Positions 48,812 to 55,228 of a stretch of 55,244 nt of DNA are shown here, in pieces. The position numbers were made by a program, and so were the translations under genes. The DNA lies in assembly GCA_021646415.1 (NCBI GenBank), contig SOEU01000022.1, positions 1 to 55,244 of the forward strand. Reading direction: 5' to 3'. The notes below the pieces were generated by a model. That model made no database searches, was not told where the DNA came from, and saw only the letters and a program-made list of their open reading frames with translations. The stretch's first letter is position 1. The number at the start of each line of letters is the position of its first letter. Source of the stretch: Candidatus Brocadia sp. (GTDB lineage Bacteria > Planctomycetota > Brocadiia > Brocadiales > Brocadiaceae).

Positions 48812-51409
48812 ATGAAAACGACTAAATGGTTAGCCAGGGAATTTATAACGCCTGATGCTATCTCATCTATCCGTGACGCCATTGAAAAGACGGGTGGAAA
48901 CGAGGTATTTCTGGTCGGCAGACTGAACGATGAGCATCTGGTGACCGATGTGGATGTTTACGCCATGGGAAACAGAGGTGCTGTGCCTGCTATCATCAAA
49001 GAGGCAAAATATGGGGACGTTATTATCCACAATCATCCGGACGGTATCCTGGCTCCCTCCGATGCGGACATTGAAATTGCATCCTACATGGGATCACTCG
49101 GGGTGGGATGCTATATCGTGGATAACAGCGCAGAATATCTGTACCCGGTGGTAAAGGTCAGGAAAGAGCGGGTATGTGAGCAGCTAAACTTCAAAGAATT
49201 ATCCGCACAATTCCAGCCCGGAGGAAATTTCGCACAACACTTATCTCAATACGAATATCGCAAACCCCAGGTTGAGATGCTGAAGTCGGTAGTTGATGCC
49301 TTTAATGCAGACAAGATTGCCGTGATTGAGGCGGGGACAGGGACGGGAAAATCCCTGGCATATCTTGTCCCCGCCGTTTTCTGGAGTATAAAAAATCAGG
49401 AACGTGTAGTAGTTTCTACCCATACAATAAACCTTCAGGAACAGTTAATTGAAAAGGACATCCCTGTCCTCAAGAAATGTTGCGGGCTCAATTTTAAGAG
49501 TGTGTTGGTGAAAGGCAGGAATAATTACCTATGCCTGAGGAAGGTGTATACTTTACGTTCTGAGGGCGGCACATTGGTTGAGGACAAAGATCGGCAGCAA
49601 CTGAACGACCTGTTAGAGTGGACAACAAAGACACGGGATGGGAGCAAGGCAGACCTCAATTTTGTGCCACAGGACGACGTCTGGGAAGCAATACAGTCAG
49701 AGGCCGATCAGTGCACACGATTAAAGTGCCGGTTTTATGATGAGTGCTTTTTTTATATTGCCCGGAGAAAAGCGGCCAGCGCCGATGTGTTGGTAGTAAA
49801 TCATTATCTCCTGATGGCTGATTTGATCGTACGTAAGGAAACAAAGGGTTACGACACGGTAGCCATCCTGCCACCCTTTAAGAAAATCATTATTGACGAG
49901 GCACACCACCTTGAAGATGTGGCAACAGCGAATCTGAGCTGTACAATCTCGAGGCTACGAATAATAAAGCTTTTGGGAAGATTGATCAACATAAAGGATA
50001 GTAGAAAAGGCCTTTTGCAGTACCTTAAAAGCAAACTCAAAGAAATGAGTTCGATTCACGACAAGTCTATTGCCGCGGAAATTAACGACAGAATCAATAC
50101 AGAAATCCTGGAGGCAAGGCAGCATCTCTATGATACTGTTCAAGAAATCTTTGAAAACATCTCCAGGGCAATAAGCGTGTATACGAGAAATAAAAATTTT
50201 CACAGAGAGGATCCTAAAGAAAATGAGACCAAATTACGTATCACGGAAAGCCTGATTTCTACCGCCCTGTGGCAAGATGTTATAGAGGCCGGGCTCAAGA
50301 CATTAAGCGTGGGCATTCTTAAATTCGTCTCATTATTAAGAGCGCTGTTAGATGAGTTCGGAGAACTCTCCAGGAAGTCACAGGATATCCTTTCATCCGT
50401 GCTGATAGATATTGTATCCTGCAAGACGCGTCTGAAATTGGTAGCAAGCGATCTTGCTTCTTTCATTACGGGGGACGAAAAGATTTGCAAATGGATGGAA
50501 ATCAAAAAGTACGGAGGGGGGCCTGTTATTCGGTTTTGCGCAGCGCCACTCTCTATTTCTCATGATTTGAAGGCATGCCTGTATGATAATTATACCTCGA
50601 TATTACTGACATCGGCCACCCTGGCGATCAGCAGGACTTTTAAATTCTTTAAAGACAGTATTGGTTTGCATCAAATTCCAGAAGACCGCTTGTCCGAATT
50701 AATCTTAGATTCTCCATTTGACTACAAGAGACAATCTATGATTGGCATCCCCACGGACATTTCAGAACCTGACAAGCCGAGTTATGTTTCGACCCTCGAA
50801 GAGAATATCTTGAAGACCGTAGAAATTTCAGAAGGACGCGCATTAATCCTGTTTACATCTTACAGTCTTCTTGATAACCTCTACCGAAGGCTAGAACCGC
50901 AGGTTACACATCTCGGTTATACCTGTTTGAAACAGGGGATGGATAACCGTCACAACCTTCTAGAAACCTTTAAGAAGGACAAGACGTCAGTGCTCTTCGC
51001 CACGGACAGTTTTTGGGAGGGGATCGATGTCAAGGGTGATGCACTGGAATGTGTCATTCTTACCCGATTACCCTTTAAGGTGCCTACGCAACCTATTATT
51101 GAGGCACGGGCGGAGGCCATTGAAAGGGCTGGTGGTGATGCCTTTTACAATTATTCCTTACCGATGGCAGTAATTAAATTTAAACAGGGCTTTGGAAGGC
51201 TTATACGCAGTTGCGAGGACAAGGGGGTTGTGGTAATCTTTGATCGCAGAGTAGTTACCAAAAAGTATGGACATATTTTTCTTCAGTCACTTCCGGACGT
51301 TAGGTACATCAAGGATAAAGGCGATGTTGTTTTTAAAGAAATGAGACTGTTTTTAGGTAAAAGTGTTACTCCCTCCCATCAGGAAGGGAAAGTGCCAAAT
51401 ATCGAATGA
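48812..51409 (+). CDS. JAB-domain/DinG-type DNA helicase fusion
   Basis: 865 aa. Residues about 1-120 are a RadC/JAB metallo-fold with the JAMM signature H73-x-H75, S83 and D86 (IIHNHPDGILAPSDADIEIA) and a candidate Glu31 (NEVFLVG). Residues about 145-850 are an XPD/DinG-family superfamily 2 helicase. Walker A is GTGTGKS (175-181), DEAH is 362-365, and four cysteines (C241, C301, C306, C312) are placed to hold the 4Fe-4S cluster. The helicase C-terminal motifs include ILLTSATLAIS, FATDSFWEGIDVKGD and QGFGRLIRS. DinG unwinds 5'-3' and resolves R-loops and G-quadruplexes. In E. coli-type DinG the N-terminal part is absent. The JAB part could be a nuclease or isopeptidase. Confidence 0.93.
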   Translation: MKTTKWLAREFITPDAISSIRDAIEKTGGNEVFLVGRLNDEHLVTDVDVYAMGNRGAVPAIIKEAKYGDVIIHNHPDGILAPSDADIEIASYMGSLGVGCYIVDNSAEYLYPVVKVRKERVCEQLNFKELSAQFQPGGNFAQHLSQYEYRKPQVEMLKSVVDAFNADKIAVIEAGTGTGKSLAYLVPAVFWSIKNQERVVVSTHTINLQEQLIEKDIPVLKKCCGLNFKSVLVKGRNNYLCLRKVYTLRSEGGTLVEDKDRQQLNDLLEWTTKTRDGSKADLNFVPQDDVWEAIQSEADQCTRLKCRFYDECFFYIARRKAASADVLVVNHYLLMADLIVRKETKGYDTVAILPPFKKIIIDEAHHLEDVATANLSCTISRLRIIKLLGRLINIKDSRKGLLQYLKSKLKEMSSIHDKSIAAEINDRINTEILEARQHLYDTVQEIFENISRAISVYTRNKNFHREDPKENETKLRITESLISTALWQDVIEAGLKTLSVGILKFVSLLRALLDEFGELSRKSQDILSSVLIDIVSCKTRLKLVASDLASFITGDEKICKWMEIKKYGGGPVIRFCAAPLSISHDLKACLYDNYTSILLTSATLAISRTFKFFKDSIGLHQIPEDRLSELILDSPFDYKRQSMIGIPTDISEPDKPSYVSTLEENILKTVEISEGRALILFTSYSLLDNLYRRLEPQVTHLGYTCLKQGMDNRHNLLETFKKDKTSVLFATDSFWEGIDVKGDALECVILTRLPFKVPTQPIIEARAEAIERAGGDAFYNYSLPMAVIKFKQGFGRLIRSCEDKGVVVIFDRRVVTKKYGHIFLQSLPDVRYIKDKGDVVFKEMRLFLGKSVTPSHQEGKVPNIE

Positions 51410-53698: not shown

Positions 53699-54280
53699 AA
53701 AAGATTATTGCACAATTATTATGTCCTGTTCCTTTATGCCAGGGAATATTGATTGTGGGATTATTTCTACTTTTGTTTTCCCGAAAACAAAGGATTGGAA
53801 AATTTATCGTTACAGTTGGAGTACTGTTATTTGCAATCCTGAGTTACAGGGGTATTCCAAACATACTTTTAAGACCGTTAGAGCATCATTATCTACCACT
53901 TGGCATAACTGCAACATCTGATACACCCGGCAGCGACCTTATATCTTCAGTAAAGTGGATCGTTGTTTTGGGCGGAGGACACACTTCCGACCCAAACATT
54001 CCTGTTACCAGCAAGATCTCTGATGCGTCGTTAGTTCGTCTGATAGAAGGCGTAAGGCTCCACAATGAAATACCGGGAAGTAAACTTATTTTAGCTGGGG
54101 GAAAGGTTTTTGATGCAGTCGCCGAGGCAGAAAACCTGGAGAAGGTTGCCACGGCTATCGGTGTAAAGCAAGAAGACATTAATCCTGGAGTCTGATTCAA
54201 AAGATACAGTTGACCAGACACAACTCATGAAACCGATCGTTGGTGATTACGGGGTTTATGTCATAACATCGATAACTTAA
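53686..54280 (+). pseudogene. DUF218 (YdcF/ElyC/SanA-type) membrane protein, broken
   Basis: The first 169 codons encode two membrane segments (about 13-31 and 40-57), then the DUF218 start WIVVLGGGHTSDPN and IPGSKLILAGGKVFDAVAEA. The frame ends at 54193-54195. One base over the domain resumes as ILESDSKDTVDQTQLMKPIV and GDYGVYVITS before a stop at 54278-54280, just where the conserved A.HM.R segment should follow. A single extra base near 54180 plus a truncation at a rearrangement explain this. ElyC-type proteins act in envelope/peptidoglycan homeostasis. Confidence 0.75.
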
Positions 54281-54298
54281 AAAATATCATAACATCGA
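54261..54298. repeat. 12-bp direct repeat at rearrangement junction
   Basis: tcataacatcga occurs at 54261-54272 and 54287-54298, exactly at the point where the DUF218 gene loses homology. A hairpin cttccaaaa/ttttggaag follows at about 54325-54344. Confidence 0.6.
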
Positions 54299-54356
54299 AA
54301 ACTCGGTAAGAATCGTCTAGACTTCTTCCAAAAACTTTTGGAAGGAGAAATCGGCG

Positions 54357-54530
54357 GTGAAGGATCAAAAAGAATATGAGAAGCGGTGTAAGGCGATTCA
54401 GTTGTATGAAGAAGGTTACGGCTTCAATAAGATACTCGGGATGGTACAAAGAAGTAGATTTTGGCTTTCTAAGTGGCTGAAACGATATAAGGAACAAGGC
54501 GGCAAAGGTTCTGTCAACGGTTCTGGTAAT
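54357..54530 (+). pseudogene. transposase N-terminal helix-turn-helix fragment
   Basis: From GTG at 54357 (AAGGAG upstream) the frame reads KDQKEYEKRCKAIQLYEEGY, GFNKILGMVQRSRFWLSKWL, KRYKEQGGKG. This is a typical helix-turn-helix start of an IS transposase. After about residue 55 the open frame runs antisense through hsdM and is meaningless, so only the first part of the IS gene survives. Confidence 0.6.
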
Positions 54531-54534
54531 GCGT

Positions 54535-54788
54535 TTCATGAAGAATTGGGTGGCAGCATCCATATCGACATGCCGTACAAGGGTAAGCCCCTGGGGCCTT
54601 TTGGTCGGCAAACTGGCTTCAATGTCATCTTTTACCACCAGATACCGGCTGTAGGCATGACGCAAAAATACCAGACCCATCACCGGCATAAAATATTCAT
54701 TGCTGGCGTAATTGGAGTTAGCCCTGAGGGTATCCGCGGCGCTCCAGAGCCTTTTTTCTATTGCTTCAATGTTTTCAAGCTGTGGCAT
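54535..54788 (-). pseudogene. hsdM: type I restriction-modification methyltransferase (HsdM) N-terminal fragment
   Basis: The frame from 54788 opens MPQLENIEAIEKRLWSAADT, LRANSNYASNEYFMPVMGLV, FLRHAYSRYLVVKDDIEAS, the N-terminal helical domain of HsdM N6-adenine methyltransferases. Homology is lost after about residue 65, and the protein then runs antisense into the transposase fragment. The SAM-binding and NPPF motifs are absent. It begins 5 nt after the RadC-like gene. Confidence 0.75.
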
Positions 54789-54793
54789 AGTTT

Positions 54794-55228
54794 TTATCTA
54801 AAAAGTACTCCTTTCTCCTTAAAACTGATATAGCCGTTGTCGGTAATAATATGATCCAGCACTTCAATATCAAGAATGGTTCCTGATTGAATCAGTTTTT
54901 CTGTGAGTTTCATGTCTGCCTCTGACACCTCCATGTTTTTTGACGGATGGTTATGCGCAAGGATAACTGAGGATGCAAGGTGACGAATAGCCGGCTCAAA
55001 GACCTCGCGCGGATACGCCAGGGTTTCTGTTAGCGTCCCAATGGAGATAGTCTCTTTATGAACCAACTGCTTGCGGGCATTGAGATAGAGCGCCAAAAAA
55101 TGCTCTTTTTGCTTGCCCCGCAAATACGCGGAGAGCCCAGAGCTGGCAAAGCTGATCAACCTGCTCGTTATCCCTGGAACAGGCCTCGTGCCAGCTGTTG
55201 AAACCGGTCGTACCGATATTGCTGGCAT
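54794..55228 (-). CDS. RadC-like JAB-domain protein
   Basis: 144 aa. The MPN/JAB fold is clear: KQKEHFLALYLNARKQLVHK, ISIGTLTETLAYPREVFEPA, and the JAMM motif HNHPSKNMEVSEADMKLTEK (H-x-H, S-x2-D). DHIITDNGYISFKEKG closes it. Such genes often lie beside hsdM and in integrating elements. The first 30 residues do not look like the family. Another frame at 55244-55190 (IGNVNASNIGTTGFNSW) may be the true N-terminus, so a frameshift and extension past the window edge are possible. Biochemical role of RadC proteins is unsettled. Confidence 0.75.
   Translation of the reverse strand: MPAISVRPVSTAGTRPVPGITSRLISFASSGLSAYLRGKQKEHFLALYLNARKQLVHKETISIGTLTETLAYPREVFEPAIRHLASSVILAHNHPSKNMEVSEADMKLTEKLIQSGTILDIEVLDHIITDNGYISFKEKGVLFR

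Follow-up and report, generated by a model that had tools for sequence, protein, structure and literature searches.

A JAMM metalloprotease-fold domain attached to a YoaA-type iron-sulfur helicase in Candidatus Brocadia

In a window of 55,244 nucleotides from Candidatus Brocadia sp. (the whole stretch of DNA that was analysed) we find a single open reading frame encoding one protein, which begins with a JAB/JAMM domain and continues into a complete iron-sulfur helicase. The protein is almost certainly a RadC-like DinG, that is, a single-copy chromosomal YoaA-type FeS SF2 helicase to which a JAMM zinc-hydrolase domain is attached. Joining this identity to a protein-cleaving mechanism gives our best overall explanation, which we hold at a probability of roughly 0.45; the mechanism taken by itself, in which the helicase would deliver a zinc peptidase to protein bound on DNA, is a tentative proposal with somewhat less than even odds.

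Results

The fusion and its family assignment

An earlier sequence-only reading had placed a JAMM set at residues 31, 73, 75, 83 and 86, in front of a complete FeS SF2 helicase. Both points are borne out: the five residues read E, H, H, S and D, and behind them lie Pfam Helicase_C_2 (6.8e-49 with the whole protein), DEAD and DEAD_2 together with four FeS cysteines (Table 1). The fusion of a JAMM domain to an FeS helicase in Candidatus Brocadia is confirmed as real.

Table 1. Positions of the fusion, its landmarks and the neighbouring RadC-type gene in the window.
Feature	Position	Strand	Remarks
RadC-like DinG gene	48812..51409	+	865 aa, ATG start, stop codon included
JAB/JAMM domain	48812..49165	+	residues 1-118 approximately; structurally matched part 9-115
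E31, JAMM glutamate, putative general base	48902..48904	+	directly before strand 32-38
H73-N-H75, putative zinc-ligand histidines, HNHP motif	49028..49036	+	model and alignment
S83 and D86 of JAMM motif	49058..49069	+	start of helix 84-95
Linker	49166..49225	+	residues 119-138
DinG/YoaA-type SF2 helicase	49226..51358	+	residues 139-849 approximately
Walker A GTGTGKS	49334..49354	+	residues 175-181
C241, first of four FeS cysteines	49532..49534	+	invariant in alignment
C301, C306 and C312, other three FeS cysteines	49712..49747	+	invariant in alignment
DEAH box	49895..49906	+	residues 362-365
Helicase motif VI QGFGRLIR	51185..51208	+	residues 792-799
Stand-alone RadC-type JAB, not part of the system	54794..55228	-	144 aa, without N-terminal RadC region

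That the fusion was created by assembly or gene calling is vanishingly improbable. Such a reading could appeal to Candidatus Brocadia carolinensis (L014, L039), in which the ORF is split into frames of 362 and 591 aa by a frameshift that is either real or a sequencing error, and to the broken copy in genome G004. In the latter, however, the neighbouring genes are broken too, which points to an indel-rich assembly and led us to reject true gene loss there. The same continuous ORF recurs in dozens of independent genomes, some of them single-contig assemblies, and this recurrence refutes the artefact.

The helicase part is closest to YoaA, the best NCBIfam match of the protein, although its 590 bits fall below the equivalog cut-off of 680. 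The RadC-like JAB family of Pfam scores weakly against the whole protein (20.8 bits, cut-off 22.1) and passes the cut-off when residues 1-141 are taken alone (25.6 bits); the Pfam RadC model is also matched by all 46 of the homologues of the fused JAB domain. The RadC-family model PRK00024 and the equivalog for Csf4, the CasDinG of type IV CRISPR systems, lie below their cut-offs (19.7 against 180 bits and 112.7 against 400 bits, respectively). Membership of a defence system was considered and rejected, the PADLOC matches, type IV DinG foremost, covering helicase parts only. The motif E ... H-x-H-P-x6-S-x2-D is present on an MPN fold, the combination by which the JAMM metalloprotease fold is recognised.

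The predicted structure of the JAMM domain

AlphaFold2 models the JAB domain alone with a pLDDT of 88 and the full-length protein with a pLDDT of 86.4 and a pTM of 0.81. Among solved structures the top Foldseek match of the domain is RadC (2qlc), which a profile search with the domain also finds (7.9e-7), and CSN5 and PfJAMM1 are among the other JAMM/MPN structures in its best matches. When the domain model is re-aligned, Rpn11 (Z 9.3), BubCD (Z 9.2) and RadC (Z 8.8) are effectively tied. The full-length model is closest to E. coli DinG with single-stranded DNA (6fwr, E 4e-39). It contains a C-terminal helix at residues 837-849, described here from the model alone; a C-terminal alpha-7 helix in MD2 is a feature of the group described in Cheng 2025.

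Within the modelled domain, E31 stands before the strand formed by residues 32-38, H73 ends the strand 70-74 with H75 right behind it, and S83 and D86 lie at the head of the helix 84-95, an arrangement like that of JAMM sites. From these secondary-structure positions, and from the superposition of the model on JAMM folds including zinc-bound Rpn11 (4o8x), the metal residues would be expected to cluster.

The fold comparison bears on two alternative activities. By analogy with ExoDinG and EndoDinG, the domain might be a metal-dependent nuclease that trims the unwound strand, and other DinG subgroups do have N-terminal nuclease domains (PMC11981726, main text). An ExoDinG-like protein (L158) also occurs in related genomes, as does a second DinG-like helicase whose N-terminal domain differs (L202, G075:C2:480000-484500, Geomonas silvestris). 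Against this, the fold matches of the domain are JAMM/MPN proteins and none is a nuclease; the DALI matches reported for the RadC-like domain in the main text of PMC11981726 are likewise metalloproteases, with no nucleases. Our search, which covered the open literature, found no nuclease assay of RadC. We consider a nuclease decidedly unlikely, and a protease-type activity appears to suit the model-based fold comparison better. A further second DinG-like helicase with a different N-terminal domain was seen in a KSB1 MAG (L203, G077:C337:12000-16500); it and its Geomonas counterpart are perhaps members of the EndoDinG subgroup.

Given its structural similarity to Rpn11, PfJAMM1 and BubCD, the domain might instead strip a ubiquitin-like modifier from proteins bound to DNA. 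It is compact, however, at about 115 aa and without long insertions, a shape that we take to speak against ubiquitin binding, and deconjugation of this kind seems to us improbable, at long odds. The family Prok-E2_B gave no match in 29 genomes, a result made uninformative by a control that was likewise silent.

Conservation of the JAMM site

The five JAMM residues are invariant in all 50 aligned full-length homologues, which are 37-86% identical to the window protein, as are the four FeS cysteines, the Walker A core, D362 and E363 of the DEAH box and the motif VI residues. Only 16 of 111 columns are invariant, and the probability that all five JAMM residues fall among them by chance is 3.4e-5; most of these homologues were gathered with patterns including HNHP, so that the histidines are partly ascertained. 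Outside the Brocadiaceae the two parts of the protein diverge about equally, with a mean identity of 48.6% for the JAB domain and 44.9% for the helicase.

A motif-independent set was obtained by running a helicase-core query over the order to which the Desulfuromonas genome G076 belongs, where 92 of 98 genomes matched. The 50 loci then read comprised the 30 best matches and 20 others, mostly among the weaker ones. The full JAMM motif is kept in 49 of these 50 Desulfuromonadales helicases (L193 confirmed), far more than chance would give. The remaining locus, the divergent L204 (G111:C1:219500-220500), carries a degenerate site before the helicase, reading GNALYCIG...HNHPSGDLSPTAAE, in which E31 has become A, S83 has become T and D86 has become E, so that JAMM activity is dispensable in at least one lineage. 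Judged from these alignments, the JAMM site is under strong selection yet not indispensable. Conservation of this order strongly suggests a working metal site, and the domain is probably catalytically competent, catalysis being favoured because the putative catalytic glutamate is strictly conserved.

A catalytic domain has to be weighed against a purely structural or protein-binding module, comparable to MPN-minus domains, which would dock the helicase on a partner and replace recruitment by HolC/SSB. The main text of PMC11981726 relates that HolC recruits YoaA to forks. HolC was found in none of the 44 genomes searched, our own among them, with a positive E. coli control, and because the helicase is YoaA-like a different recruiter may be needed. 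The L204 lineage, which lost E, S and D but kept the fusion, is also consistent with docking. The five JAMM residues would not be needed for such a role, however, and they are invariant in the 50 alignable homologues and intact in 49 of the 50 loci collected independently of the motif. We think a non-catalytic docking module unlikely, while taking it seriously; with HolC absent, the JAMM domain could supply recruitment or catalysis.

Distribution and gene context

Nearly every Brocadiaceae genome has the fusion, and among named relatives the nearest is Brocadia sp. AMX1, at 89% in the domain. Of 33 Brocadiaceae genomes, 30 encode the fusion and no other Helicase_C_2 protein; the remaining three, namely G004 and two incomplete genomes, show none. 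In family f4 of the same order the helicases that were read begin directly at the helicase and are DinG proteins without JAB.

In a collection of species genomes, 386 stretches encode relatives. The best 80 of these 386 come from Brocadiaceae, Geobacteraceae and other Desulfuromonadales, and their record titles also include Nitrospinota, Sumerlaeota, Auribacterota, KSB1, Spirochaetes, Clostridia and Chloroflexi. In all but one of these 80 the domain runs on into the helicase, the exception stopping at a contig edge; among the best 80 of 386 relatives, this type of JAB was thus found only fused to a helicase. The contig titled Chloroflexi (L068, JADFVC010000151.1) has both the fusion and radC, and in the helicase tree it falls within Desulfuromonadaceae; on this placement it is probably misbinned, and other MAG titles may be wrong too. 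Geobacter and Geomonas isolates carry the fusion.

Searches of plasmid and phage collections gave no match to the fusion, and viral contigs gave one weak match. An origin on a mobile element was rejected on these results, and the fusion behaves as a chromosomal gene. No operon partner common to Brocadiaceae and Desulfuromonadota was clear, each clade having mostly its own neighbours.

Regulation by the SOS response was examined and is likewise not supported. No LexA-type box was found upstream of the fusion in Brocadia or its relatives when compared with shuffled controls, and 81 homologues show no upstream enrichment of known LexA-box patterns. The lexA promoter of the same genome (G000:C42:10126-10139, L164) contains a perfect palindrome, TTGGTGAACACGTGTTCACCAA, which is a candidate Brocadia LexA box. 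Elsewhere it occurs only as copies with 2 mismatches, no more often than a reversed control, and nothing similar precedes the fusion, which gives damage induction no support.

Relation to RadC

The sequence-only reading also took a stand-alone RadC-like protein 3.4 kb away as a hint of joint function, an argument that fails in Brocadia. The RadC of the window is one of four copies in the genome, lies where the contig ends, next to a truncated HsdM, and has no counterpart adjacent to the fusion in relatives: where both genes sit on one long contig (G002, G005, G020, G021, G022), the distance between them is at least about 0.5 Mb, also when taken around the circle. Their proximity in Brocadia is chance. 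The HsdM remnant is an N-terminal fragment (minus strand, 54261-54833) overlapped by a transposase-like HTH ORF on the plus strand; the restriction-modification gene there has apparently been cut by an insertion element.

A weaker form of the argument survives in five loci of Desulfuromonadaceae type (L068, L080, L100, L101, L103). There radC follows the fusion on the same strand, two or three genes further downstream, and several of these loci have a GDSL-type lipase-like ORF between the two; the arrangement may be no more than clade-level synteny.

The earlier assignment of the fused domain to the RadC type holds in part. Fold and motif agree with it, but the HPREVF insertion and the LDHIIIG segment of RadC are missing, and in a tree the fused JAB domain forms a clade of its own, apart from true RadC, with 100/100 support. 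In the tree of the helicase core a branch with SH-aLRT 86 sets all JAB fusions to one side; with few outgroups, and those on long branches, this topology no more than suggests a single origin of the fusion.

A further JAB protein was noticed in the same genome. At L001 (G000:C18:47661-47999) a Prok-JAB protein adjoins a cysteine synthase-like ORF, which suggests a cysteine pathway of the CysO/Mec type.

Discussion

Characterised JAMM enzymes cut peptide or isopeptide bonds, and it is for this reason that we favour a protein on DNA as the substrate. According to the protein-cleaving mechanism, the helicase would use the single-stranded DNA of forks, gaps or R-loops as its loading site and, as its DinG/XPD relatives suggest, travel 5' to 3'. 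In doing so it would carry the JAMM site up to a DNA-bound protein, which might be crosslinked or might be a replication or transcription factor that has stalled; cleavage of a peptide or isopeptide bond there would clear the track. Zinc binding, a peptide or isopeptide bond as the target and a DNA-bound substrate are each inferred parts of this scheme. A more ambitious version, which we regard as doubtful, is that a bacterial helicase and protease combined in one polypeptide clears DNA-protein crosslinks or stalled complexes, as a functional counterpart of SPRTN-type repair. If true, this role would fall to the one helicase of DinG/XPD type that anammox bacteria have.

JAB proteins of the RadC type occur widely among bacteria. 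With the site kept in 49 of 50 loci and naturally lost in one, the permanent attachment to a helicase links a JAMM site to work on DNA, and RadC-like DinG offers clean point mutants for learning what JAMM cuts. Since the Geobacter and Geomonas isolates also have the fusion, such work is possible outside the hard-to-culture anammox bacteria.

Comparison with known systems

Among characterised helicases, YoaA (E. coli b1808) resembles the fusion as an FeS SF2 helicase and its best NCBIfam match; it differs in having no JAB domain and in working with HolC, whereas the fusion scores below the equivalog cut-off and HolC is absent from the genomes searched. ExoDinG proteins, for example that of S. 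aureus, are likewise DinG helicases with a hydrolase domain at the N terminus, but the domain is an exonuclease and not a JAMM domain. RadC/YicR shares the JAB fold and the HNHP...S..D motif, while its N-terminal region, its HPREVF-containing insertion and its LDHIIIG segment have no equivalent in the fused domain; according to a citation in PMC11981726, E. coli radC mutants are normally sensitive to damage. Rpn11, CSN5, PfJAMM1 and BubCD share the fold and the set of catalytic residues at about 12-21% identity in structural alignments, and PfJAMM1 and CsRpn11 are cited in PMC11981726.

The closest known system is that of Cheng 2025 (PMC11981726), whose main text names the architecture RadC-like DinG, gives Desulfuromonas soudanensis as an example, models Zn in the site and states that no experiments exist. 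The Brocadia protein shares with it an N-terminal RadC-like domain with E, two H and D, a helicase with the CCCC set of FeS ligands, a YoaA-like organisation and a host without HolC, and it belongs to this already described kind. The sequence-only reading had allowed that the architecture might prove common and characterised; judged by the main text of PMC11981726, it is already described but uncharacterised. Brocadia, Geobacter and Planctomycetes are not mentioned in that main text. Relative to it, the present analysis adds the distribution of the fusion, its status as sole helicase, the motif-independent conservation of the JAMM site, a variant that has lost the site and the separation of the fused domain from RadC.
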